Below the pieces are notes generated by a model. That model was not told the origin of the DNA. It did no database searches and worked only from the letters and a program-made list of their open reading frames with translations. From Geodermatophilus ruber (lineage in GTDB: Bacteria; Actinomycetota; Actinomycetes; Mycobacteriales; Geodermatophilaceae), in contig NZ_FOSW01000001.1 in NCBI RefSeq assembly GCF_900114385.1, positions 248,001 through 312,000 on the forward strand: 64,000 bases of DNA. Reading direction: 5' to 3'. Each line of letters opens with the position of its first letter. The stretch's first letter is position 1. This document shows positions 8,908-56,949 of the stretch, one piece after another. The translations under genes were made by a program, and so were the position numbers.

Positions 8908-10259
8908 GCGCCGACCGCCGCGGCCGGGTCTACCGCCGCTGCTCCTGCCGGGGCGAGGACGGCCGCCAGCTCGGCCAGGCCTGCCCGCGCCTGGCCACCG
9001 ATGGCAAGCACGGCACCTGGTACTTCGCCGTTGACATGCCCGCCGAGGGCCGGAAGCGCCGCACCATGCGCCGCGGCGGCCACGCCACCAAGGCGGCCGC
9101 GAGCCGGGCCCTGGCCGACATCGCCAACCGGACCGCGCAGGGTGTGCGCGTCGACGACCGGGAGACCGTCGCTGCCTTCCTGGCGCGCTGGCTGCAGGTG
9201 AAGGCCACCGAGGCGAAGGCGACCACGCTGCGCTCCTACCGGGCGCACGTCGACAACGTCATCGTCCCAGCGATCGGGCACGTACCGATCGAGCGGCTCC
9301 GCGCTGAGCACGTCGAACAGCTCCTGGTCGACGCTGCCGCCGGTCGCGGCCCGGTGACCGTCCGGCGGATCCACGCGACGCTGCGGTCGGCGCTGAGCTA
9401 CGGGGTCAAGACGCGCCGGCTGCCGTTCAACGTGGCCAGCAACGTCACCCCGCCGAACGGGGCCCGCCCCGAGGTGCAGCCGTGGTCAGCCGGCGAGCTC
9501 GTGACCTTCCTGCGGCACGTCGAGACCGACCGGCTCGGCCCGCTGTTCGAGGTCATCGCCGCTACCGGGCTGCGCCGCGGCGAGGCGCTCGGCCTGCGCT
9601 GGACCGACCTCGACCTGGCCAACCGCACCGCGCGGATCCGGCAGACCGTCGTCGACGTCGGCGGCCGGCTCGAGTTCTCCACCCCCAAGACGCGGTCGTC
9701 TGAGGCGACCGTGCCGCTCACCGAGCGCGCCGTCCAGGCGCTGCTGCAGTGGCGGCTCGGGCAGGACATCGACCGGCAGACCTGGGGCACCGCCTACGAG
9801 GATCACGGCCTGGTGTTCGCCCGGGAGAACGGCGCCCCGCTGCGGCCGGAGTACGTCACCCGCCGCTTCGTCGCGCTCAGCCAAGCCGCCGGCCTGCGCC
9901 AGGTGCGGCTGCACGACCTCCGGCACGGCGCGGCGTCCCTGCTGCTCGCCGCCGGCGTCCCCATGGCGATCGTGTCGAAGATGCTCCGGCACTCCTCCAT
10001 CGGCATCACGGTCGACACCTACGGCCACCTGTCCGAGGACACCGCTCGGACCGCGTCGGACGCCATGGCGGCGGCGCTGGAGCGGGCCTTCGAGACCACC
10101 GCCGCGGCAGCTCGCGACCACGCTGCGACCACAGGGGGGTCCGTGGGCGCCGCACAGGGCGTTGACGTGGACGAACCTGCAGGTCAGAAGGGTGGGCCCC
10201 GTGGGGATCGAACCCACAACCCGCGGATTAAAAGTCCGCTGCTCTGCCAGTTGAGCTAG
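8904..10259 (+). CDS. int: Tyrosine integrase of element 1
   Basis: This is a 451-aa site-specific recombinase. There is an N-terminal arm-binding region (AP2-like, to ~80), a core-binding SAM-like domain (~88-170) and a catalytic domain with R224 (TGLRRGE), K262, H337-R340 (HDLRHG), H363 (LRHSS) and nucleophile Y373 (DTYGHL). The gene reads straight into the attachment core: the last 22 residues and the stop are encoded by the complement of tRNA-Lys. After excision, the same frame would continue into the left-end sequence and stop after ten new residues. The start overlaps the previous stop (ATGA at 8904-8907). Confidence 0.95.
   Translation: MSADRRGRVYRRCSCRGEDGRQLGQACPRLATDGKHGTWYFAVDMPAEGRKRRTMRRGGHATKAAASRALADIANRTAQGVRVDDRETVAAFLARWLQVKATEAKATTLRSYRAHVDNVIVPAIGHVPIERLRAEHVEQLLVDAAAGRGPVTVRRIHATLRSALSYGVKTRRLPFNVASNVTPPNGARPEVQPWSAGELVTFLRHVETDRLGPLFEVIAATGLRRGEALGLRWTDLDLANRTARIRQTVVDVGGRLEFSTPKTRSSEATVPLTERAVQALLQWRLGQDIDRQTWGTAYEDHGLVFARENGAPLRPEYVTRRFVALSQAAGLRQVRLHDLRHGAASLLLAAGVPMAIVSKMLRHSSIGITVDTYGHLSEDTARTASDAMAAALERAFETTAAAARDHAATTGGSVGAAQGVDVDEPAGQKGGPRGDRTHNPRIKSPLLCQLS
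10114..10132 (+). promoter_or_regulatory. GCGACCAC doublet near attR
   Basis: GCGACCAC lies at 10114 and 10125, with 11-bp spacing, 77 bp inside attR and within the integrase coding tail. It matches the doublets at 736 and 4818 and is a candidate integrase arm site. Confidence 0.5.
10191..10237 (-). repeat. attR core of element 1 inside tRNA-Lys
   Basis: This is the second copy of the 47-bp perfect repeat. It covers the 3' 45 nt of the intact tRNA-Lys plus 2 bp beyond, and marks the right end of the element. Confidence 0.9.
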
Positions 10260-10265
10260 AGGCCC
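10193..10265 (-). tRNA. tRNA-Lys(UUU)
   Basis: This intact 73-nt tRNA has a 7-bp acceptor stem (GGGCCTC pairing, with one G-T, with GGGGCCC), D arm, anticodon loop CTTTTAA with anticodon TTT, T arm TTCGATC and discriminator A. CCA is not encoded. It is the integration site of element 1, and its function is preserved because the 5' half stayed on this side. Confidence 0.97.
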
Positions 10266-46274: not shown

Positions 46275-47381
46275 GTGGACGTTCTCGGCTCCGGCCACGA
46301 ACAGGTCGTCTTCTGCTCCGACCCGGCGTCCGGGCTGCGGGCGGTCATCGCCATCTATTCCACGGCCCTGGGCCCCGCGCTGGGCGGCACGCGGTTCTAC
46401 CCGTACCCGAGCGAGGAGGCCGCCGTCGCCGACGCGCTGGCCCTGTCGAAGGCCATGGCCTACAAGAACAGCCTGGCCGGCCTCGACCTCGGCGGCGGCA
46501 AGGCCGTCGTCATCGGCGATCCGCAGACCGCCAAGACCGAGCCGCTGCTGCGCGCCTACGGCCGCTTCGTGGAGTCGCTGGGCGGGCGCTACCTGACCGC
46601 GTGCGACGTCGGCACGACCAACGCCGACCTGGACGTCGTCGCCCGCGAGACCCGCTTCGCCCACGGGCGGTCGGAGACCTACGGCGGCTGCGGCGACTCC
46701 TCGGTGCTCACCGCCTTCGGCGTCTTCCAGGGCATGCGCGCGGCCGCCCAGCACCGCTGGGGCAAGCCGTCGCTGGCCGGGCGCACCGTCGCCGTCGCCG
46801 GTGTCGGCAAGGTGGGCGGCTGGCTGGTGGACCGGCTGGTCGAGGAAGGCGCCGACGTGGTGGTCACGGACGTGGACGCCGGAGCCGTCGAGCGGGTCCT
46901 GGCCAGGCACCCCGGGGTCGACGCGGTGGCCGACACTGCGACGCTGGTGCGCACGCCGGCGGACGTCTACGCCCCGTGCGCCCTCGGCGGCGCCCTGGAC
47001 GACGAGACGGTGGCGGTCCTCGACGCGGAGATCATCTGCGGCGGCGCGAACAACCAGCTGGCCCACCCGGGCATCGCCGAGCAGCTCGTCCGGCGCGGAA
47101 TGCTCTACGCGCCGGACTACCTGGTCAACGCCGGCGGGGTGATCCAGGTCGAGGACGAGCGCCACGGCTCCTCCGCCTTAATTCCCGGCGGTGGGGGTGG
47201 GTTCTCCTTCGAGCGGGCCCAGGCCAAGGCCGAGCGGATCTTCGACACCACGCTGCGGGTGCTCCGGGCCGCCGACGAGCAGGGCATCTCCCCCGCGGCG
47301 GCCGCCGACCGGCTGGCCGAGGAACGGATGGCGAGCGTCGGCCGGCTCGCCACGATTCGAGTTCCGGCCCGCGGCTGGTAG
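46275..47381 (+). CDS. Leu/Val/Phe-type amino-acid dehydrogenase with a replaced C-terminus
   Basis: The 368-aa NAD-dependent enzyme deaminates branched-chain or aromatic amino acids. The catalytic region is [20 protein letters not shown] and the NAD motif is [15 protein letters not shown]. From about 47164 the DNA belongs to element 2: after DERHG an unusual [10 protein letters not shown] insert leads to [20 protein letters not shown] and the end. The native end ([14 protein letters not shown]) lies at 56773-56949. The frame is restored by the element copy, so the enzyme may still work, with an extra ~10-residue loop and a slightly different tail. GTG start. Confidence 0.88.
47163..47167. 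other. attL crossover region of element 2
   Basis: CACGG is shared by 47163-47167 and 56773-56777. Left of it is host dehydrogenase; right of it the sequence departs from the native gene. The serine-integrase crossover should fall within or next to these 5 bp. Confidence 0.6.
47201..47381 (+). repeat. Element-borne copy of the dehydrogenase 3' end
   Basis: This segment is a diverged direct repeat of 56778-56949; by eye nearly nine in ten bases agree, with changes mostly silent or conservative. It begins at GGTTCTCCTTCG in both copies. The element copy ends in RVPARGW, the native copy in RLPR. Confidence 0.85.
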
Positions 47382-47534
47382 CCGCCCGGCGCCTGCCTCA
47401 CCTCCGCCATGGGCCAGGTGACCGGGAGGACGACGACTTGGCAGAACCCGCACCAGGCTCGTCACGTGGCTCACGTCCGTGAAGGCGGCTTTAGGGACAG
47501 GCGCCGCTCGACCGTCGCAGGTTGCATCGGCGCC

Positions 47535-47960
47535 TCATGGCATCCACTCCGGGTTGTATTCCGGGTGATCGGCGTATGGCACGGCCATGAAGCGGAGGAC
47601 CAGGCCGAGCGCTTCCACAGCGCCCAGACGCTCTGATGGCGTGGGATCGTCGCGTGCTGTCGCGGTGACAGCGTCCTGGGCGCTTCTGTGGGCTGAGAGA
47701 ATCCGCCGCTTGGCGTCGCACTCGGCGAGCACGCGCTCAGGGTCGTTTCGAACGATGTGACGAGCCGACGCCTGATCCATCAACTGCTTCCACGGGCCAC
47801 AGGCCACAGGGACGCTGGTTCCATCGAGGAAGACCGCATCCCCCGCGCCGCTCCAGTACCAACCGGCGGTCTCGCGGGAGTCGATCACCTTTACCGCCGC
47901 GCGGGCTGCTGACTCGTCCTCGGTGATGCGAGCCAGAAGGAATGCGGGGAGGTTCTCCAC
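47535..47960 (-). CDS. DUF6221-family protein
   Basis: The 141-aa protein has a GTG start. The pattern of N-terminal AFLLARITEDESAARAA, central HIVRNDPERVLAECDAKRRIL and terminal MAVPYADHPEYNPEWMP is that of DUF6221, common in actinobacterial phages and integrative elements. The role is unknown. It is convergent with the end of the dehydrogenase and divergent from the SGNH hydrolase. Confidence 0.8.
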   Translation of the reverse strand: MENLPAFLLARITEDESAARAAVKVIDSRETAGWYWSGAGDAVFLDGTSVPVACGPWKQLMDQASARHIVRNDPERVLAECDAKRRILSAHRSAQDAVTATARDDPTPSERLGAVEALGLVLRFMAVPYADHPEYNPEWMP

Positions 47961-47996
47961 GCGCCGATCTTCCCGCGATCCCCCGCGTGAACCAAC

Positions 47997-48025
47997 GTGT
48001 CCCTAAGTGGGCCGCTACGGGACAC
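47997..48025. repeat. Inverted repeat with GTCCCTAAGTGGGCC core
   Basis: The 7-bp arms GTGTCCC and GGGACAC flank 15 nt. The core GTCCCTAA(G/A)TGGGCCG recurs at 48818-48842, on the other side of the SGNH gene. It could be a terminator or a regulator site. Confidence 0.45.
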
Positions 48026-48104
48026 CCAGGGCGCGCCGCAAAGGCGGCGTGAGGGACACCGGGCGGTACCGCACGAGCGGCTCCCGCGAACCGTCGATAG
48101 GCCG

Positions 48105-48755
48105 ATGAGGAACCCTGTGCGGGTGGACAACTCATCGCCAGACGTCCGCATCGCCTTCTTCGGCGACTCCTACACGGCCGGGGTGGGGGATCCGTCGGCT
48201 CTCGGGTGGGTGGGGCGAGTCCTCGCCCGCGCCCGGACAACCGGCTGGAACCTCACCGGCTACAACCTCGGCGTCCGCCGCGAGACCACCCCCGACATCC
48301 AGCGCCGGTTCATTCCGGAGGCGCTGCCGCGCCTGCGGGACGGTGACGTCTTCGGCGTCGTCGTCGGCAGCGGCATCAACGACACCACCGTCGCCTCCGG
48401 CTGCCGCCGCGCCACCATTGCGGACACGGTGGCCGCTCTCGACCAGATCCTCGATGATGCCGCCGCGGCACACTGGTCCGTACTGGTCATCGGTCCCGCG
48501 CTGATCGACGACCCGCAGCAGAACGAACGCATCGAGGAGCTCTCCCAGGTCCTGGGCAAGCGGTGCGCCGACCGCGGCGCTCTCTACGTCGAGATCGCCG
48601 CATCGCTCATAGGAGACGAGGACTGGATGTCCGAGGTGGCGTCGATCGACGGCGCGCACCCGGGGGCGTCCGGGTATTCGCGGCTGAGTGAGCTGATCTG
48701 GCCTGTTTTCCTGCACTGGCTGACTGGACTACAGGCAGGGACAGCCACCCGGTAG
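48105..48755 (+). CDS. SGNH/GDSL-type hydrolase, cargo of element 2
   Basis: The start is taken at ATG 48105 (216 aa); GTG 48117 is an alternative. Block I is AFFGDSYTAGVGD with the nucleophile Ser, block III GSGIND, and block V DGAHPGASGYSRL supplies Asp and His. It is probably a cytosolic esterase, as no signal peptide is seen. It is flanked by related inverted repeats, suggesting a separately acquired cargo gene. Confidence 0.8.
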   Translation: MRNPVRVDNSSPDVRIAFFGDSYTAGVGDPSALGWVGRVLARARTTGWNLTGYNLGVRRETTPDIQRRFIPEALPRLRDGDVFGVVVGSGINDTTVASGCRRATIADTVAALDQILDDAAAAHWSVLVIGPALIDDPQQNERIEELSQVLGKRCADRGALYVEIAASLIGDEDWMSEVASIDGAHPGASGYSRLSELIWPVFLHWLTGLQAGTATR

Positions 48756-49077
48756 CGCATGTTGCCGGCGGCAGCTTCTTGGACGTCTTGCGTCAAAGGC
48801 CCGGCAATCGTCCCTCTGTCCCTAAATGGGCCGTTTAGGGACGGCCGGCCAGGCTCCTATCCACCGGGTAGACACCGGCCCGGCACACCTTCGTCAGGCG
48901 ACCGGCCTTGCCGGTGGCCGCCTCGGCGGCGGCCCATTCGGTGACCTCCGCCCCTGGGCGTGGCCGACGGCCGAGCGCCGCCCACATCCCTCGACTGGAA
49001 CGACGGGTACAGGGGCTCTTGGGGCTCCTGGGGCTCCTGGGGCCAGCAGTCCCGGCACGCCGACGGTGGCGGGCGTC
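48756..49077. other. Spacer with inverted repeat and CTGGGGCTC tandem
   Basis: No gene is seen in these 320 bp. The stretch holds the GTCCCTAAA palindrome (48818-48842) and, at about 49016-49045, short tandem copies of a GGGGCTCCT-like unit. Confidence 0.4.
48818..48842. terminator. GTCCCTAAA-N7-TTTAGGGAC hairpin
   Basis: Perfect 9-bp arms and a 7-nt loop lie 60 bp downstream of the SGNH gene. It may be a terminator; it also resembles the repeat at 47997. Confidence 0.5.
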
Positions 49078-49350
49078 ATGTGCCCCACGATCAAGTGCAT
49101 GACTACTGCTGTGTGGATCGAGTCGCTGCACAACCTGCACTGCCCGACGTGCGAGTCCCGGCTCGTCGAGCACGCCGGCCGCTTCGACGTCATCGGGCGG
49201 CCGGACCCCGGGTACACGGCGGACCCCCGGACGTTGATGTGCCCGTCGGGGCACGTCCTGCCCGACGACCAGCACGCCCTCTATGAGCACCGCGACAACC
49301 GGGGCTACCCGCAGGAGGCGACAACGAGAGAGGTCCGCGCGCCGCGCTGA
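49078..49350 (+). CDS. Small zinc-ribbon protein
   Basis: From ATG 49078 the protein is 90 aa; an ATG at 49099 is an alternative start. The two Cys pairs, CPTCESRL and CPSGHVLP, look like a zinc ribbon. The C-terminus is polar. Small zinc-ribbon proteins of this size are frequent in actinophages. No specific role can be given. Confidence 0.55.
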   Translation: MCPTIKCMTTAVWIESLHNLHCPTCESRLVEHAGRFDVIGRPDPGYTADPRTLMCPSGHVLPDDQHALYEHRDNRGYPQEATTREVRAPR

Positions 49351-49706
49351 CCCCCTGCCCTTCTCCCAGCACCAGCAAGGACCGGCTGCGCTACGCCCCG
49401 TCGTTCCAGCTGGGGGATGGTGGGCGCGCGCGCCGACCATCCCCCAGCGCGCAGACCGTGGCCGACTCCGCAGCGCAACGGGCGGGGCGTGTCACCCGGG
49501 TGCGGGCGGGGACAGTCCCCTGCCGGAGGGGGACCGTCAGTCGACCGGACGTCCCCCTCGGCGCGGGCAATGTGTCTCAACGATTTAGACACGGGGTGTA
49601 GCGGGATTGATCGCTTTCGGTGACCTTCGGCCCTTCGGCCGTACTCGTGCCCGGGACCAGCATGGAGGGCGGCCCCACCGGCCTGGATCCCGAGAGGACG
49701 GACCCC
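49351..49706. other. Spacer with a 40-bp palindrome
   Basis: No gene is seen in these 355 bp. The main feature is the palindrome at 49409-49448. A second region (about 49500-49560) is rich in opposing GGGGAC/GTCCCC runs and could fold. Confidence 0.45.
49409..49448. repeat. 40-bp near-perfect palindrome
   Basis: Arms GCTGGGGGATGGT and ACCATCCCCCAGC flank a self-complementary GGCGCGCGCGCC centre, with one mismatched pair at 49422/49435. It is too long and symmetrical for a typical terminator. It could be a replication or packaging site, or a very strong bidirectional terminator. Confidence 0.8.
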
Positions 49707-49904
49707 ATGGACACGATGACCGGCGGCAGCACACGCATCGACCTCCTCGGCGGCTGCACGGCCGAGGTCGAGGTCCACGACCCCGGCGACGGGCCGCCCC
49801 GAGTCATCGCGACCGTCGACGAGTGGCCCATGCCCCCGGCCCAGGCCCGGCAGCTCGCCCACGCCCTGCTCGCCGCCGCCGATCACGCCGTGGCGGCGAC
49901 CTGA
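49707..49904 (+). CDS. Small hypothetical protein (65 aa)
   Basis: The start is chosen at ATG 49707, which follows GAGAGGA by 8 nt. The protein is acidic and helical-beta (IDLLGGCTAEVEVHDPGDGP, PMPPAQARQLAHALLAAADH). This resembles small actinophage proteins; role unknown. Confidence 0.5.
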   Translation: MDTMTGGSTRIDLLGGCTAEVEVHDPGDGPPRVIATVDEWPMPPAQARQLAHALLAAADHAVAAT

Positions 49905-50308
49905 CCCCGCTGACCCCCTCCCCCCGGCGGGGACGGGGGCCGGCGAAGCATCATGGTGTCGGGCATGACCACCCTGGTGCAGATGACACCAGGATGCTTG
50001 CGGCCGACACAGGGACGGTCCCGGTGCGACCCCGCGGTCAGCACGACGGCCCTGCCCGTGCCTGCACGTAGGGGCCGCCCCGGCCCCGCGGACAAGGAAG
50101 ACGCGGGGCCGAGGCGGCCGGGGTCGGGCCCGTCGGCGCTGGGCGTGGGGTCGAGGCGGAAGGGAACGACCCGCCCCCTCGCCGCGACGGCCGCCAGGCT
50201 CCGCCGCGGCGAACCACGCCCATAGATTCCGGCCCGCGCTCCGGACTGAGTCCGGCATGAAAGGCGCGTGGGCGGCCGGTGACTTTGACGCCCCGTGGGC
50301 CCGAGGAT
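49905..50308. other. Spacer with a terminator hairpin
   Basis: No gene is seen in these 400 bp between the plus-strand 65-aa gene and the minus-strand capsid operon end. A strong hairpin lies at 50073-50119. Confidence 0.45.
50073..50119. terminator. Terminator hairpin after the capsid operon
   Basis: The arms at 50073-50090 and 50102-50119 pair over 18 bp with one mismatch, around an 11-nt loop. It lies ~190 bp past the end of the minus-strand operon. Confidence 0.55.
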
Positions 50309-50533
50309 TCAGTAGTCGACCACGGGCAGCCCCCACCAGTCGCCGGCGTCCGGGCCCCCGATCCGGATGACCGCCTCCGGCACCAGCCGGCCGGTGGCCG
50401 CCGCCGCGGCGTACTGGTGGTGCCAGCAGGCCTCCCGCAGCTTGTCGTGCTCACAGCGAGTGGCGTCGAACTGGGCGACGTCCGCCGCGTCCGTGCCGGC
50501 CGCGGCGTCCGCCCGGGTGGCCGTCAGGTTCAC
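50309..50533 (-). CDS. Small protein following the capsid gene
   Basis: The 74-aa protein overlaps the capsid stop by 4 nt. It has an Ala/Asp-rich start, then a Cys/His cluster (CEHDKLREACWHH) that may bind metal, and an acidic end (GDWWGLPVVDY). Coupling to the capsid gene suggests a role with the particle, for instance cargo, decoration or completion. This is inference only. Confidence 0.6.
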   Translation of the reverse strand: MNLTATRADAAAGTDAADVAQFDATRCEHDKLREACWHHQYAAAAATGRLVPEAVIRIGGPDAGDWWGLPVVDY

Positions 50534-51807
50534 GGCCGGATCCCGGAGACGACGCAGAAGCTGGCCGGCCTGGCGACGGCGATGTCACCCCTCCACCAGA
50601 CCAACACGCCAAGTTCCCCGGTGGTGGCGAATGCCTCCGTCAACAGCGTGACCTGCAGGTCGGTGCGAACCCCGATCAGCAGGTTCCTGTAGTCCCCGAC
50701 GATCACGTCGGAGGCGTCGGAGTTGGCACCGGCGGTGAGGTCGTTGGGCACCGTCGACGTCTCCAAGCGGGCCACCCCGTCCAGGTAGTCCGGCGCCCGC
50801 AGAGGCTGCCCGTCGCTGGCCTTGAGCTTGGCGAAGCTGCGGCCGGTGCGCGGCGAGAAGATCGCCGCGGTGGGCTCTTCGTTCACGTCACGAAGGCTTC
50901 CGACGGCGTCGATCAGGACGTCGTAGCTGGTGGGCGCCGCCCCGTTCGCCCCGCCGAACGCGGTCGTCTGGATGCCGGGGGTGGCCTTGATGCCCCTGGG
51001 CTCCGGGGCGGTGCCGGAGCCCAGGAGCGCGACCTTGTCCACGGTCCTCGCGACGACGGCCGCGAAGGCCTGGACCAGCAGGTCGTCGGCCTCGGGGGCG
51101 TCCTCCAGCAGTTCCCTGGTCACCTTGGTCAGGCCGGCCAGGGACCGGGCGGTGAGCCGCACCGTGCCGATCACGCCGTCCGACGGCGGGATGGCCGCGC
51201 CTTCCTGACGCCAGGCGACCGACGGGTCGCCTTCCCAACGCGGCACGTCCACGACGCGGGCGGCCATCGGAAACACCCGTGCTCCCGCACGCATCACCTG
51301 AGTCGCGGCCCTCGCCTTGTCGATCACGGACGCGCTGAGCAGCGTCGGGAGGAGGTACCCGCCCGCCGCCGGGGTCGCCCCGGTCATCGAGCGCTGCTCG
51401 GCCTCGGCTCCGGTCCAGTCGCCCGTCGCCACGCCGCGAAGCCACTTGCGGAGGCTCAGCTCCTGCTGTTCGTGCTCGGCCGGCACCAGCCCCTGCGCGC
51501 GGGCGAAGCCCCGGAAGCTCTGGCCCTCGCCCAGCGGCTCCCCGTCCCGGTACTCCCCCACCGACCCGGCCCGGAGCCGGCGGGCGGCGCCGGCGTGGGA
51601 CAGCGCGAGCAGCTCGTCCTGCTGACCGAGCTCGGCCAGCCGGGCGGCGTACTCGCCGATCTCGCGGGTCAGCGCCCGGAACTGGGCGTCCTCCGCGGCG
51701 GAGAGGTTGGTGCGGCGTTCGGCCTCGACGGCGTCGACGATCCGCTGCCGCCGGGCGACCGCGTCGTCGTGACGCTGCCGCAGCCGGGTGATGATCTGGT
51801 CGCTCAT
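50530..51807 (-). CDS. HK97-family major capsid protein
   Basis: From ATG 51807 the protein is 425 aa. The first ~110 residues form a charged coiled coil (RLRQRHDDAVARRQRIVDAV), the scaffold-like delta domain. The mature fold begins near SMTGATPAAGGYLLP and continues with VPRWEGDPSVAWRQEGAAIP and the usual C-terminal DLQVTLLTEAFATTGELGV. It should assemble into icosahedral shells. No prohead protease, portal or terminase is in the element, so it is alone. Confidence 0.9.
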   Translation of the reverse strand: MSDQIITRLRQRHDDAVARRQRIVDAVEAERRTNLSAAEDAQFRALTREIGEYAARLAELGQQDELLALSHAGAARRLRAGSVGEYRDGEPLGEGQSFRGFARAQGLVPAEHEQQELSLRKWLRGVATGDWTGAEAEQRSMTGATPAAGGYLLPTLLSASVIDKARAATQVMRAGARVFPMAARVVDVPRWEGDPSVAWRQEGAAIPPSDGVIGTVRLTARSLAGLTKVTRELLEDAPEADDLLVQAFAAVVARTVDKVALLGSGTAPEPRGIKATPGIQTTAFGGANGAAPTSYDVLIDAVGSLRDVNEEPTAAIFSPRTGRSFAKLKASDGQPLRAPDYLDGVARLETSTVPNDLTAGANSDASDVIVGDYRNLLIGVRTDLQVTLLTEAFATTGELGVLVWWRGDIAVARPASFCVVSGIRP

Positions 51808-52117
51808 GGTGATCTCGCTCTGCGTGAACGGGTCATCCCTCGGCGGCGTCGTTTGTCGACGCGGCTGCGGCGGCGCGGCCGGAATGGGGCGGCCGGGTGC
51901 TGCGGGGCGCGCAAGCTCGCACGAGGGCGGTGACCAGGTGCAGCGGCGCGGATCTCCGGCTGGGACGGCGCGGCCGGGATGGGCGGCCGGGTGTCCCGGG
52001 GCGGCACGAACCGGGTGCTGCGGCGTGATCGGAGCGGCCCCCTCGCCGCGACCCATGCCAGGACCGCGAGGACGACCGCCTGTCAGAAGCGTAGCCGAGG
52101 CCGCCGACAGAACCGCG

Positions 52118-52342
52118 CTACAGCACGTCGTCGAGCGGCACCAGCTCGGTCAGCGGAACCCGGATGATCTCGCGGTCGGCGATGAACGCCGCCAGCGCGG
52201 GCACCGGCGCCTCCACGCCGAGGAAGTACGTCCGCCCGGCGGCCAGCGCGGCGAGCAGGTGGTCAGCGTCCGGCCGGGCGCTCACCGCGGCCATCATCTG
52301 CTCAAACAGGTCGCGCATGACTCGGGTGTCCAGGGTGTTCAT
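52118..52342 (-). CDS. Small acidic hypothetical protein (74 aa)
   Basis: The start is ATG 52342, preceded by AGGAGAGGG at ideal spacing, which rules out the longer open frame. The protein is helical and hydrophobic in the middle (MRDLFEQMMAAVSARPDADH, YFLGVEAPVPALAAFIAD). No family is recognised. It lies ~310 bp upstream of the capsid gene on the same strand. Confidence 0.6.
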   Translation of the reverse strand: MNTLDTRVMRDLFEQMMAAVSARPDADHLLAALAAGRTYFLGVEAPVPALAAFIADREIIRVPLTELVPLDDVL

Positions 52343-52557
52343 GATCCCTCTCCTGAGGTCGGCGATACCCGTATGTCCAGGTCCGTCCAGTGTGGCCAGA
52401 GCCGCCGACACGGCCCCCTCGCGCGCACGCCCGTGCGTGCGCCCGCCCGCACACACGCCCGCACACGATGGCGGGGGGTCAAACGGGGGGATGTCCACCT
52501 ACCGGCGGGGCGGTCGGGGTGACCCCCGCGAAGATCGACACCCCCTTCCCCGTGGCG

Positions 52558-53028
52558 TCACGGCTGCCAGCTCGCGGGCGGTTCGGGGGCGCCGCGGCGG
52601 CGGGGGTCGGGCCGGCAGCGGGGACAGCGGCCATCACGACGGGCCGCTCGCCAGGTGAGCCGCTCGGTGAGGCATGCGCGGCAGTGCAGGCCGGACACTG
52701 CGGGCGCTGGCCGCGGCGGTGGCTCGGGCTCGGTCTCGGTCTCGGTCTCGGGCGGCCGGTACCCGCGGTGCCCGGCCTTGGCCCCGCCGCGGCGGCCGGG
52801 TCGTCGCCGCTCGGATGTCGTCGCCTCGACGCGCTGCTGCTCGACCTGCGGCTGCTGTTCACGTTGCTGCGGCTGCTCACGCTGCTCACGCGCTGGCCGC
52901 GTCGTCTGATCTCCGGCGGCGAAGCGGGCTCGGAGCCGGTCGACGTCGGCGCTGTCGATCGGCTGCGGCTCAGCGCGGATGGCTGCCGCGGCTGCTGTCT
53001 GCCTACTCCGGTTCGCGCGGGATCTCAT
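52558..53028 (-). CDS. Low-complexity protein with C-terminal zinc ribbon
   Basis: From ATG 53028, after GAGAGGA, the protein is 156 aa. The N-terminus is basic, then come Gln/Glu-Arg repeats (REQREQPQQREQQPQVEQQ), a Thr-Glu tract from a CTCGGT hexamer repeat (~52730-52754), and a C-terminal Cys4 ribbon (CRACLTER ... CPRCRPD). It is probably nucleic-acid binding. Function unknown. Confidence 0.55.
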   Translation of the reverse strand: MRSRANRSRQTAAAAAIRAEPQPIDSADVDRLRARFAAGDQTTRPAREQREQPQQREQQPQVEQQRVEATTSERRRPGRRGGAKAGHRGYRPPETETETEPEPPPRPAPAVSGLHCRACLTERLTWRAARRDGRCPRCRPDPRRRGAPEPPASWQP

Positions 53029-53158
53029 CGTGGTCCTCTCGCTGGTGTGTGGACGGACGTGGCCTCGACCGGCTCAGCGCCACCAGGCGTTGTTCGCCAC
53101 CCCGAACACCGGGGATGGCCCGTCGGGCGGGCCTGGGGGCGCTGGGCGGCTGGCGGGG

Positions 53159-53446
53159 TCAGCGCCTCGCGCCGGGGGTGGGGCGGCGCCGGGCCGGGGA
53201 GGGCCCAGCGTGGCGTGGGATGCAGAAGCGGGCCACCGGGTATCCGGGGCCGGTGTCGAGGGCGACCCACCCGGCCGCCACCAGCGCCGACAGCGCTCGC
53301 CGGACGACCCGCGCCGGGATCTGCGCGGCCTCGGCCAGCAAGCGAACGGGGGGCATCGCAACATCGGTCGCGTCGTCGTCGGCGGCGAAGCACGACAGCT
53401 GCGCGGCGACCACCACGACCGGGCCCGGCAGGCCGGACACCTTCAC
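53159..53446 (-). CDS. Small winged-helix protein
   Basis: From GTG 53446 the protein is 95 aa; the start is uncertain as no strong RBS is seen. The segment PPVRLLAEAAQIPARVVRRALSALVAAGWV fits a winged helix, followed by a basic tail. It is likely a small DNA-binding regulator in the replication and packaging operon. Confidence 0.5.
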   Translation of the reverse strand: MKVSGLPGPVVVVAAQLSCFAADDDATDVAMPPVRLLAEAAQIPARVVRRALSALVAAGWVALDTGPGYPVARFCIPRHAGPSPARRRPTPGARR

Positions 53447-53502
53447 TCGTGAGCGCCACGTCCCCCGGGGGACGCCCCCGGGGAACCCCTCCCCGGGGGG
53501 GC

Positions 53503-53670
53503 TCACTCGGCGGCCTCCGGGGAGGTCTGCTGCGGGAGCTGCTGCTGCAGCTCGATGTCGGGATCCGGTTCGGGCAAAGGCAGCTGGCCGCGGACCGGCT
53601 CGACCGGGCGCAGGCGGTCCTCCGGCCGCCGGCGGGCGCGGCCCTTCCGCCGGGGACTCGTGGTGGTCAT
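53503..53670 (-). CDS. Small basic-then-Gln-rich protein (55 aa)
   Basis: The start ATG 53670 follows AAGGAGA. The N-terminus is very basic (TTTSPRRKGRARRRPEDRL), the C-terminus Pro/Gln-rich. No fold is predicted by eye. The good RBS and position within the minus-strand operon support it as real. Confidence 0.5.
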   Translation of the reverse strand: MTTTSPRRKGRARRRPEDRLRPVEPVRGQLPLPEPDPDIELQQQLPQQTSPEAAE

Positions 53671-53765
53671 GGCGGTCTCCTTCTCTTCGGGTGGGCGGTG
53701 CTGCCCGCCGCGGTCGTCGGCGGGCGATCGTCGGGCTCGATGTCGGGATCCGGCTCGGGGGGTAC

Positions 53766-54509
53766 TCACGACTGATCGCGGGCGTTGGGGTGGCATTGCC
53801 GGCAGCGCTGGGCGAGGCCGTCGGGGGTCTCGCGCAGCCGGGTGCGTTCGTCGCACTCCCCGCACCACGGGGGCCGGGGGGGCGGCCTGTCGGCCTCGGC
53901 CTGCTGCCGCTCGTGCCGCTCGCGGGCCCGCATGCAGGCGACGCATGACACTTCAACGAAGTCGTCGTAGGCGTGCTTGTCGCAGTGCCGGGGATTCGGG
54001 GTGGGGGGAGGCGTCGCGCGCGTCTCCCCTTCTTGTACTTCTTCATGACTATTTGGGCGGCACCTGGTGCCGGTGTTCCTGTCGTGAAATGCCGGTGTTC
54101 CTGTCGTGAAATGCCGGTGTTCCGGCACCTGATCACCGGCATGCGGTGCCGCTGTTCTGCTCCGATCACCGGCACGCGGTGCCGCTGTTCCGTTCGGATC
54201 ACCGGTATGTGGTGCCGCTGTTCCCGCGGGCAGGGCGAGCCGGTACACATCGGCCACGGCCCGCCGGCCGAGGGCCGACCCGCTGCTCTCGCGGACCAGC
54301 CACCCCCTGTCGCGGAGGGTGGCCAGCGCGGCCCGGGTGGCTCGCTCCCCGAGCGCACACTCGCGGGCAAGCAGCGCGACGCCGGGGAACACCCGGCGCC
54401 CGTGCCGGTCCGCGTGCGTCGAGGCCGTGAGGCCGACCAGCCTCACCGTGGCCGTCAGCTCGCCGTCGCCCCGGAGCGCGAGTTGCCATCGGAAGCGGTC
54501 GACGGTCAT
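53766..54509 (-). CDS. Winged-helix replication-initiator-like protein with internal repeats
   Basis: The 247-aa protein opens with a helix-rich domain and a wHTH (VFPGVALLARECALGERATR, AALATLRDRGWLVRESSGS) as in phage and plasmid initiators. The middle (~97-150) is built of 11-aa repeats (TAAPHTGDPNG-type) encoded by tandem 33-bp and 22-bp DNA repeats (54068-54229). The C-terminus has two Cys pairs (CVACMRARE and CGEC/CRQC) suggesting a zinc ribbon. By analogy with lambda O, the gene may contain the origin it binds. It overlaps the upstream micro-ORF by 4 nt. Confidence 0.65.
   Translation of the reverse strand: MTVDRFRWQLALRGDGELTATVRLVGLTASTHADRHGRRVFPGVALLARECALGERATRAALATLRDRGWLVRESSGSALGRRAVADVYRLALPAGTAAPHTGDPNGTAAPRAGDRSRTAAPHAGDQVPEHRHFTTGTPAFHDRNTGTRCRPNSHEEVQEGETRATPPPTPNPRHCDKHAYDDFVEVSCVACMRARERHERQQAEADRPPPRPPWCGECDERTRLRETPDGLAQRCRQCHPNARDQS
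54068..54123. repeat. 22-bp direct repeats, iteron-like
   Basis: Two perfect tandem 22-bp copies beginning TGCCGGTGTTCCTGTCGTG lie at 54068-54089 and 54090-54111, and a partial third at 54112-54123. They lie inside the initiator-like gene. Confidence 0.85.
54131..54229. repeat. 33-bp tandem repeats, iteron-like
   Basis: Three 33-bp units start at 54131, 54164 and 54197, each beginning GATCACCGG and containing GGTGCCGCTGTTC. The units differ at a few bases. The 33-bp period is about three helical turns. Confidence 0.85.
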
Positions 54510-54634
54510 CGGCCACCTGGCCTCGTACCGGAGAGCGCCGCCGGGACCGGGGACGTCGTACCCTGACGGGCGGGCCGAGGGGGCTCGTGCTTCACCGGAG
54601 CGCCGTCGACTGGCCGGTCGGCGGCGTTCTTCAC
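54506..54634 (-). CDS. Possible 42-aa protein linked by 4-nt overlaps
   Basis: From GTG 54634 a 42-aa frame (VKNAADRPVDGAPVKHEPPR...) ends at a TGA overlapping the initiator start. Its own start overlaps the stop of a 13-codon frame (54631-54672). The composition is Pro/Arg-rich and unordered. It may be real, or only a relay for translation. Confidence 0.3.
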   Translation of the reverse strand: MKNAADRPVDGAPVKHEPPRPARQGTTSPVPAALSGTRPGGR

Positions 54635-54672
54635 GTCCGTCTGACCGGCACGGCGCGGAGTGCGGCGGTCAT
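54631..54672 (-). CDS. Possible 13-aa leader-like ORF
   Basis: ATG 54672 overlaps the 49-aa gene's stop (ATGA), and its TGA overlaps the next GTG (GTGA). The peptide is MTAALRAVPVRRT. It may serve only to carry ribosomes to the next frame. Confidence 0.25.
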   Translation of the reverse strand: MTAALRAVPVRRT

Positions 54673-54818
54673 GCGGCGCCCGCCGGTCTGCGGGCGGGCG
54701 GCCGGAGCAGGACTCGGAGGCGTTTCCGCTGCGCGGCGGTGAGCTTGGGGGCCTCGGTGGCGATCCGCTCGGCCCAGGCGTCGAGGTCGCCGTCGGGCGC
54801 CCGCGGCTCGACGGTCAT
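54669..54818 (-). CDS. Small phage-type protein (49 aa)
   Basis: ATG 54818 overlaps the upstream 56-aa gene's stop (ATGA). The sequence (DLDAWAERIATEAPKLTAAQ, then RKRLRVLLRPP) has the pattern 'ERIA..AP.LT..QR..L..LL' seen in very small actinophage and element proteins of unknown role. It is probably real although short. Confidence 0.55.
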   Translation of the reverse strand: MTVEPRAPDGDLDAWAERIATEAPKLTAAQRKRLRVLLRPPARRPAGAA

Positions 54819-54985
54819 GTCTCGTCGTCCTCGGGCTCGGCGAGGAGCATGTCGGCCAGGCGGCGGCGGGTCTCAAGCGGCAGGTGCGGCCACGTCGTCG
54901 TGATCCGCTGGATGTACTTGGTCGCGGCCTGGGTTCGGTGGGCGACGTGCGCGGGGGTGACTCGGGCGCGGGCGTCGGTGCTCAT
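54815..54985 (-). CDS. Small phage-type protein (56 aa), first gene of the initiator operon
   Basis: From ATG 54985 the protein reads STDARARVTPAHVAHRTQAA, TKYIQRITTTWPHLPLETRR, RLADMLLAEPEDDET. It is helical with an acidic end and no known domain. It heads a run of overlapping genes leading to the initiator-like protein. The promoter should lie in 54986-55190. Confidence 0.55.
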   Translation of the reverse strand: MSTDARARVTPAHVAHRTQAATKYIQRITTTWPHLPLETRRRLADMLLAEPEDDET

Positions 54986-55029
54986 CGGCGGTGTGCTCCA
55001 CGGGTCATGGATTCAGGGCGGCGAACCCC

Positions 55030-55070
55030 GTTCGAGCACCTGTTCGAAACATCCCCTCATCGAGAGGGGA
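55030..55070. promoter_or_regulatory. Operator-like repeats upstream of the initiator operon
   Basis: GTTCGA occurs at 55030 and 55042, 12 bp apart, followed by a small inverted repeat (CCCCTC-ATCG-AGAGGGG, about 55053-55069). It suits a repressor site for the minus-strand operon starting at 54985. Confidence 0.35.
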
Positions 55071-55189
55071 CATACGGTTCCCTGTTGGGTCCGCTGGCCC
55101 CACTCGACCACGCCGCGGGCACCGTTTCGGGTCCTGTGCAGACGCGTGTATTGACACTCCTGGCCGCCATTTCCGCGGCGACCAGGACA

Positions 55190-55228
55190 AACAAAAAGGC
55201 CCCCTCGGAAACGTTCCGAAGGGGCCTT
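55190..55228 (-). terminator. Rho-independent terminator of the serine integrase gene
   Basis: On the minus strand, an AAGGCCCC-rich stem (pairing with GGGGCCTT, loop around AACGTT) is followed by TTTTTG. It starts ~17 bp after the integrase stop. It is one of the few hairpins here with a T tract. Confidence 0.8.
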
Positions 55229-55242
55229 GTGTGGGTGGGGCG

Positions 55243-56739
55243 TCAGGCGCGCCAGACGACCCGAATCGTGTCCGGGTCGAACGGGCGCCGGCCGGGGCGA
55301 CCGGGGAGCAGGACGACCCGGCACAGGGCGTCGATGACGGCCCGCCGGGCGCCGAGGTCCAGCGCCAGAAAGGCCTCGGGCGGGCTCTCGGCGGACACCA
55401 CGGCGGCCACCCGCGATCTCGCCGTCACGGCGGCCAACCGACGGTTGACCCGGTCCAGCTCACCCTTCCGACGGGCCTTCTGCTCGCGCATCACTCGGGC
55501 GCTGATCTCGCCGTCGCCGTAGTCGTTCTCGATGCGCTTGATCTTGGCGCGGAGGACGCTGGCCTTGTCGGTCAGCCGGGCGACCTCGGGGTCGTCGGCC
55601 GCCAACAGGTCGGCGACGTCGGGTCGGCGCAGGCGCTTTTCCACGACGAGCAGGACCGCCTCGTCGATCGGGTCGGCGAGCCGCGTGAGGTGCTTCTTTC
55701 GCCGGCACGAGTAAATCCGCTCGCCCGCGGCCCGGTACCGCGACTGGACGTCGGAGTCGATCCCCTCGGCGTCGCACTTGCCGCAGCGGAACAGCCCGGC
55801 GCCGAGCCACTTGCGGGCGGTCGACCCGCCGGACGTCCGGCGCTCCGCGGCGGTCAGCAGCGCCTCCGCCTGCCGCAGCGTGGCCTCCGGCACGATCGCC
55901 GGCCAGGTCCCCGGGCCGGTCTCCTCGCCGCCGTAGGCCCGGATCGCGGCGTAGCGCGGGGAGAGCAGGAGCTTGCGGACCGCGGTGGGCTCCCACTCGC
56001 GCCCCAGCGTGGTCCGCAGCCCGCGGCCGCCGTTCAGCCCCTCGGCCCCGTCCGGGCGACGCTCACCATTGAGGTACCTGGCGATGCTCGCCAGCGACGA
56101 GCCGGCGAGCAGCATCTTGTACGCCTGGCGGACGGCGGCGGCCTCGTCCTCGACCAGCGTCATGCCGCCCTTGGCGTAGCCGAACGCCCTTCGACGCGGG
56201 GGCCGCCCCTGCTCGACCGCCTGCACCTCCGACAGGTGCTGCCTCTCTCCCTTCTGATCTGCCTCGAAGCGGGCCATGCTGGCGAACGTACGGGCAGCGA
56301 GCTTTCCCTGCGGGGTCTCGAAGTCGAGGTCGCCCTGCACGGTGATCACGCGCACCCCCAGGGGTTCGCACAGGTCGATGAGGTCCTCCAACTCGACCGG
56401 CCGGCGGAGCAACCGGTCGAGCGCCCACGCGACCACCACGTCGATGTCGCCCCGTTCGATCCGGCGCAGCATCTCGTCATAGATGGGGCGCTTCCGGCGC
56501 TTGCTCGCGCTGGTGTGGTTCTCGGGGAAGATCAACGAGGGGTCCACGGTCCAGCCTCGGCGCTCGGCGTGGGCAGTGCAGGCGGCGCGCTGCCGGTCGA
56601 TCGCGCGCCCCTCCTCATCGTCGCGGTAGCGGCCGGGGTCATGCGACTGCCGCAGATAGAGGGCGACACGCACCGGGGCATCCACTGGGGCAAACGCACT
56701 GCGGGACCGGGTGCGACGGGGGAGTGTGGCGGTGGTCAC
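55243..56739 (-). CDS. Large serine integrase of element 2
   Basis: The 498-aa protein has an N-terminal resolvase domain with catalytic Ser in ALYLRQSHDPG (S32) and the DRLLRRP and GKLAARTFASMARFE motifs. A recombinase domain (~190-300) includes RRRAFGYAKGGMTL. A zinc ribbon (FRCGKCDAEG ... YSCRRK) and a coiled-coil motif (~385-440) follow. The gene starts only ~33 bp from the right junction. It is the integration enzyme for the dehydrogenase site. Confidence 0.93.
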   Translation of the reverse strand: MTTATLPRRTRSRSAFAPVDAPVRVALYLRQSHDPGRYRDDEEGRAIDRQRAACTAHAERRGWTVDPSLIFPENHTSASKRRKRPIYDEMLRRIERGDIDVVVAWALDRLLRRPVELEDLIDLCEPLGVRVITVQGDLDFETPQGKLAARTFASMARFEADQKGERQHLSEVQAVEQGRPPRRRAFGYAKGGMTLVEDEAAAVRQAYKMLLAGSSLASIARYLNGERRPDGAEGLNGGRGLRTTLGREWEPTAVRKLLLSPRYAAIRAYGGEETGPGTWPAIVPEATLRQAEALLTAAERRTSGGSTARKWLGAGLFRCGKCDAEGIDSDVQSRYRAAGERIYSCRRKKHLTRLADPIDEAVLLVVEKRLRRPDVADLLAADDPEVARLTDKASVLRAKIKRIENDYGDGEISARVMREQKARRKGELDRVNRRLAAVTARSRVAAVVSAESPPEAFLALDLGARRAVIDALCRVVLLPGRPGRRPFDPDTIRVVWRA

Positions 56740-56772
56740 GAGTTAAATAGTAGTAGTAGAGCCGACGGCTGA

Positions 56773-56777
56773 CACGG
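56773..56777. other. attR crossover region of element 2
   Basis: CACGG is shared with 47163-47167. To the left is element sequence (integrase promoter side), to the right native dehydrogenase. Confidence 0.6.
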
Positions 56778-56949
56778 GTTCTCCTTCGCCCGCGCCGAGG
56801 CCAAGACCGAGCGCATCTTCGACACCACCCTGCGGGTGCTCCGGGCCGCCGACGAGCAGGGGATCTCCCCCGCGGTGGCCGCCGACCGGCTGGCCGAGGA
56901 GCGCATGGCGCGCGTCGGCCGGCTGGCGACGATCCGGCTGCCCCGCTGA
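56773..56949 (+). pseudogene. Displaced native 3' end of the dehydrogenase gene
   Basis: It reads [20 protein letters not shown], then a stretch almost identical to the functional copy, ending ATIRLPR and TGA at 56947-56949. It has no start or promoter and was cut off when element 2 integrated at 47163. Excision would rejoin it to the rest of the gene. Confidence 0.9.

Follow-up and report, generated by a model that had tools for sequence, protein, structure and literature searches.

In islands that occupy tRNA genes, the element brings with it a copy of the gene end that it displaces. In known regulated gene switches, the inserted state is the off state, and regulated gene integrity elements were reportedly described by Mageeney et al in 2020. 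Genomic islands often reconstitute the genes that they have entered, as stated in the sections of the source consulted here (PMC12884075), and coding sequences hold 43.4% of the mapped islands according to the excerpt used of a further study (PMC12424338). PICI-like elements with an integrase and a capsid gene are known from mycobacteria, again from the consulted part of the source (PMC10654092). In Mycobacterium abscessus, a serine-integrase prophage resides in fadE, and in the portion of that paper at hand its authors think that fadE is inactivated (PMC9934374).

Here we analysed a 64,000-nucleotide stretch of the Geodermatophilus ruber genome (hereafter the window), in which an integrated element interrupts a dehydrogenase gene. 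As with regulated gene integrity elements, excision would restore the native gene; unlike in those elements, the gene is readable in both states. The window element resembles the gene-reconstituting islands in that insertion is inside a gene and the element supplies the displaced end. It differs from them, as they appear in the consulted sections, in its serine integrase, its protein-coding target, its diverged tail and a predicted binding half-site that is translated as a loop (PMC12884075). Its length of ~10 kb, its integrase and capsid gene and the scarcity of other phage genes are shared with phiRv1/phiRv2-like and PICI-like elements; the consulted part of the account of these gives no repair of a protein-coding target gene (PMC10654092). 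With the fadE prophage it has in common a serine integrase in a metabolic dehydrogenase gene, whereas in the window the frame is restored (compare the excerpt of PMC9934374).

Our literature search on leucine dehydrogenase or Geodermatophil with serine integrase, and on serine recombinases with reconstituted C-termini, found no paper; most subscription journals were outside its coverage, so prior publication is possible. Gene reconstitution by integrases is already known; as a variant of it, a half-site that is translated and has left a fossil record seems to be new. The window element appears to be set apart among gene-reconstituting islands because its binding half-site appears to be translated and because patched genes appear to outlast the element.

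The patched dehydrogenase gene

The frame spanning positions 46275–47381 of the window encodes 368 residues of a Glu/Leu/Phe/Val dehydrogenase and is free of stop codons. The gene and its two alternative ends are arranged as follows:

46275..47162, forward strand: 296 host codons of the Glu/Leu/Phe/Val dehydrogenase gene (Pfam PF02812 and PF00208)
47169..47201, forward strand: in-frame insert of 33 nt (11 residues), putative attP half-site and glycine spacer
47202..47381, forward strand: element-borne 3' end of the dehydrogenase gene, FSFERA...ARGW and stop
56779..56949, forward strand: displaced 3' end of the dehydrogenase gene, FSFARA...LPR and stop

Alignment to solved dehydrogenases identified leucine dehydrogenases as the closest structures. 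None of the NCBIfam models matched at cut-off, the top model being tryptophan dehydrogenase ScyB (309/600 bits). Scripted joining of the flanks without the element gave a gene that is open over 354 codons and then ends in a stop codon, and the dehydrogenase gene is thus readable both with and without the element. The initial annotation had claimed that the element cuts this gene and brings its own diverged 3' end in frame; the open 368-residue frame and the 354-codon joined gene bear this out. The element-borne tail (47199–47381) and the displaced tail (56776–56949) are 90.7% identical over 161 nt. Judged by its frame, the patched dehydrogenase is a full-length enzyme, which the window genome encodes only with the element's tail, in line with the earlier claim that the tail of the enzyme depends on the element.

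In the patched enzyme, ERHG is followed by the insert and then by FSFERA, whereas native enzymes proceed directly to FSF or a close variant. The initial annotation had noted an insert of about 10 residues; it is present, and its length is 11 residues rather than 10. The three best alignments with solved dehydrogenases place it as one 11-residue gap at the same location within 1–2 residues, and in the alignment with 6acf it falls between chain residues 300 and 301, after NAGGVINVADELYG. We take this to be about the same position in the fold as that of the “antenna” of animal glutamate dehydrogenases. A single-sequence structure prediction had a mean pLDDT of only 42 and was set aside.

Attachment sites and gene content of the element

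The boundaries of the element are defined by two copies of a five-base core, the first of which begins at codon 297, the 58th codon from the gene end:

47163..47167, forward strand: attL core CACGG, also at attR; the proposed crossover dinucleotide CA (47163–47164) is the dyad centre in attP and attB
56773..56777, forward strand: attR core CACGG, the same five bases as attL
56747..56767, forward strand: other putative attP arm, ATAGTAGTAGTAGAGCCGACG, common to G104 (in 2 of 112 genomes, two mismatches allowed)
47165..56774, no strand assigned: integrated element, 9,610 bp if the crossover is at CA, from flank joining and empty sites in relatives

In the reconstructed attP and attB sites of the window and of the Modestobacter genome G104 described below, the dyad centre lies between the C and the A of CACGG. 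Around this centre, the attP and attB of the window and then of G104 show 9, 17, 10 and 13 paired positions of 25, together 49 of 100, and five other centres that we tried gave 19 to 32 of 100. Only 1 of 20,000 shuffles reached 49; the four sites are two homologous pairs, and the shuffle test therefore overstates their independence. Taken by itself, the window attP does not favour this centre (two centres reach 9 of 25), which counts against our preferred reading. Different attP and attB sites with a short common core and dyad symmetry fit the type of site used by large serine integrases. The 11-residue linker is best read as one putative attP half-site plus spacer, translated in frame. A pattern search of the 112 genomes with two mismatches allowed placed the ATAGTAGTAGTAGAGCCGACG arm at two attR sites, those of the window and G104, and nowhere else. 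In the circular form, the attP of the window and that of G104 each have a stop codon in the frame of the tail right before the core (TGA at 56770–56772 in the window and TAG in G104).

The genes recognised within the element were the following:

47535..47960, reverse strand: DUF6221 protein (PF19730, E 7.7e-33)
47997..48755, forward strand: GDSL lipase-like protein, start codon uncertain (PF13472, E 1.6e-21)
50530..52056, reverse strand: HK97-type major capsid protein, start codon uncertain (PF05065, TIGR01554; scanned as 50530–51969)
53766..54509, reverse strand: replication-initiation-like protein with HTH (phrog_391, E 2e-10; PF13730)
55243..56739, reverse strand: large serine integrase, 498 aa (Resolvase domain PF00239 and Recombinase domain PF07508 exceed their cut-offs; phrog_95)

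The integrase gene starts 34 bp from the right core, and a large serine recombinase gene thus adjoins the insertion, as expected from the initial assignment of the element to a serine integrase. With an integrase and a capsid gene in a short element, the gene content resembles that of a PICI or phiRv-like satellite.

We consider it probable that this locus represents gene repair by a serine-integrase element, in which attachment at a conserved codon is combined with a translated attP half-site and an in-frame tail owned by the element. The anatomy of the locus, the empty sites, the second element at the same codon and the patched genes that are open although the search showed no integrase at their site can be read directly from the DNA. 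The large serine integrase would act on these sites to insert the element into the leucine-dehydrogenase-like gene, with the crossover at the CA of CACGG. The attP half-site and spacer are stop-free and a multiple of three, and would therefore be read as an 11-residue loop. The homologous 3' end follows in frame, such that the integrated element would leave the host with a full-length and presumably active enzyme. On precise excision the native enzyme would be regained, and selection against harming the host gene would keep the tail in the element. If correct, this mechanism would show how a serine integrase with differing sites can spare a protein-coding target by means of a translatable binding half-site, and it suggests a natural design rule for placing DNA in coding genes with the protein preserved. 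That the gene is open in both states would also suit a switch, in which the host would alternate between two versions of the enzyme as the element leaves and re-enters the gene, in the manner of regulated gene integrity; both forms are full length, unlike in the known switches, and we regard this explanation as very improbable.

The insertion site in other Geodermatophilaceae

We identified a match to the dehydrogenase in all 112 family genomes searched. For 106 relatives of the window genome we examined how the gene ends (G066–G069 and G094 were left out). No insert is present at the codon in 102 of the 106, including G048 and G054, as well as G060, which was seen just to the contig end. The initial annotation had proposed a search for strains without the element; empty sites are found in these relatives within the family. 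Three of the 106 (G044, G049 and G104) contain an in-frame insert at exactly the codon used in the window. The inserts of the window, G044, G049 and G104 measure 33, 36, 42 and 36 nt, respectively, all multiples of three. A linker pattern, CACGGNTTGTCNGGGNNACTGCCNCT, is common to G044, G049 and G104 and was found only in these 3 of the 112 genomes with two mismatches allowed; a backwards control pattern gave one match in this search and one in that for the ATAGTAGTAGTAGAGCCGACG arm. The window linker does not match CACGGNTTGTCNGGGNNACTGCCNCT, which argues against the gene-repair reading. A further genome of the 106, G017, has its dehydrogenase gene in fragments (L041 4979–5762); the gene can therefore be lost, another point against that reading.

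The genome G104, taken as Modestobacter sp. DSM 44400 of the family Geodermatophilaceae, contains an integrase 60–61% identical to that of the window on contig NZ_FNOZ01000021.1 (79,972 bases). This integrase adjoins a displaced native tail with the same downstream genes beyond it, and, as in the window, the element brings an in-frame copy of the gene end that it displaced. From these sequences, a second element in another genus replaces the 3' end with the frame kept at the same codon. The patched gene and the integrase-side junction of G104 are on separate contigs, which weighs against the gene-repair reading. None of the other window element proteins that we tried was found in the G104 stretches examined, which span part of its element.

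Patched genes with no integrase found at the site, and relic tails

In G044 and G049, the patched gene is open and the native second tail has decayed, lying ~2.2 kb and ~1.7 kb past the core, respectively. The stretches read around the site yielded no relative of the integrase, and weaker relatives are present elsewhere in the genomes of G049 (39%) and G044 (35%). G048 and G054 contain an ordinary gene without the linker and a relic of the tail downstream, that of G054 comprising just 52 nt. The intervals of G048 and G049 have 1,242 bp in common at 91% identity. The tail of G048 is native-like and ends in RGR, and the DNA at this point is similar to the end of element type in G049 (RGW); in G040 and G051, near relatives of G048, the last residues are LPR. 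This mixed 3' end would be accounted for if recombination within the G048 tail had removed the linker. G054 shows no trace of a linker-erasing recombination like that proposed for G048. Between the patched gene and the tail relic, we identified ORFs (L037 5020–6066 and L038 3337–4155) that, by eye, we take to encode a secreted DUF1996-like and a GAF-ANTAR-like protein; they are not genes of the window's element.

Relatives without the element that still have both 3' ends, which the initial annotation had named as evidence against its reading, thus exist on their face: G044, G049, G048 and G054 each have a second tail or relic, and no integrase was found in the stretches read. The conserved linker and decayed second tail of G044 and G049 fit the remains of earlier insertions, and we therefore do not count these genomes as a refutation. 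They suggest that patched genes can outlive the element, in which case insertion, retention and erasure would all be legible in the gene of one enzyme.

These genomes also bear on whether the locus is merely a tolerated accident, in which the tail was copied by chance or local duplication and the linker harms an enzyme that the host does not need. G017 lives with its gene in pieces, which would accommodate such an accident. Against it stand four in-frame cases at one codon, two of them beside related integrases, and the patched genes of G044 and G049, which are still open despite their decayed second tails. Furthermore, the 296-codon cores of the patched genes show low dN/dS values of 0.04–0.18 to their three nearest relatives (median of 0.19 over 231 native pairs), although some of the core divergence may predate the insertion. 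We therefore consider an accident unlikely and retain gene repair as the preferred explanation.

Selection and history of the tails

Among the four element tails, dN/dS is 0.24–0.40, which speaks for the gene-repair reading. The value for ten native pairs is 0–0.29, in a comparison that leaves out the displaced tail of the window. The element tails are thus less constrained than native tails, which speaks against that reading.

The initial annotation had placed the native gene end past the right junction. The displaced tail is indeed located there; whether it is purely native is more doubtful. The tree pairs the two window tails with one another (support 69), and they have in common 8 bases that no more than a tenth of 22 genus tails possess. 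Among 231 native pairs, the number of such shared rare bases never exceeds 5, and the G044 element tail also has 5 of the 8. The middle of the displaced tail is nearer to element tails, and its ends are nearer to native tails. The displaced tail may therefore have exchanged sequence with an element tail. The tail of an earlier element could have replaced part of the original, with the linker lost by recombination and the present element arriving later; alternatively, gene conversion between the two tails could have followed insertion. Along with the excess of shared rare bases, the native-like tail of G048 with its element-like 3' end and the downstream relics point in this direction. In contrast, a search for a conversion tract by run length found runs of shared sites no longer than chance (longest 5, p 0.47), the tree support joining both tails is 69, and common ancestry of the element tail and the host's own tail would look similar. 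We give such an exchange somewhat less than even credence; it would alter the history of the locus and leave the gene-repair mechanism as it is.

More tentatively, a serine-integrase lineage of the Geodermatophilaceae may have evolved a dual-use attP, which serves as integrase site and codes for an enzyme loop, together with an element-owned tail selected as host protein. Repeated insertion, element loss and tail recombination would then leave a new loop and C-terminus in a core metabolic enzyme, making the element an engine of protein change and possibly giving altered enzymes. We regard this wider proposal as rather doubtful.

Distribution of the tail and the integrase

A search of a phage collection with the dehydrogenase tail returned one match, an unannotated fecal record with a dehydrogenase gene that has no insert and is therefore probably host DNA. 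In a plasmid collection, five records contained the tail, and the one examined, from Nonomuraea gerenzanensis, has the gene without the insert. Relatives of the integrase were identified in 613 phage records, all below 60% identity, and the viral contigs searched contained neither the integrase nor the dehydrogenase. Given these matches, we rejected phage, plasmid and viral sources.

Within the order, 7 of 397 genomes contain the integrase at E<=1e-75, and within the class 3 of 394 at E<=1e-85, the window's own genome being counted in both; only G104 besides the window exceeds 50% identity. Of 180 genomes searched in the order, 100 match the dehydrogenase at E<=1e-60, and 77 of these 100 lie outside the family. 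No insert was seen by eye outside the family among the matches listed, none of which had a DNA match longer than the query span.

We also searched 19 regions around related integrases for a direct repeat between the integrase flank and the body, as a sign of tail-carrying. The window served as the positive control (161 nt at 90.7%). In 18 of the 19 regions, four of which stop at a contig end before 20 kb, there was no blastn match better than ~E 1e-4. In G053, we observed a 229-nt direct repeat of 96.5% identity (L173 3661–3889 and 18567–18795) that forms part of an ATPase-like gene. One copy is located ~0.5 kb from a 46%-identical serine integrase, and another gene is possibly involved in insertion there.

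Elsewhere in the window, positions 566–630 and 10173–10265 contain a 65-nt direct repeat of 95% identity whose copies are 9,607 bp apart, the right copy being inside a tRNA-Lys gene (10191–10265). This pair probably marks another element, in a tRNA gene, with a length near that of the dehydrogenase element.
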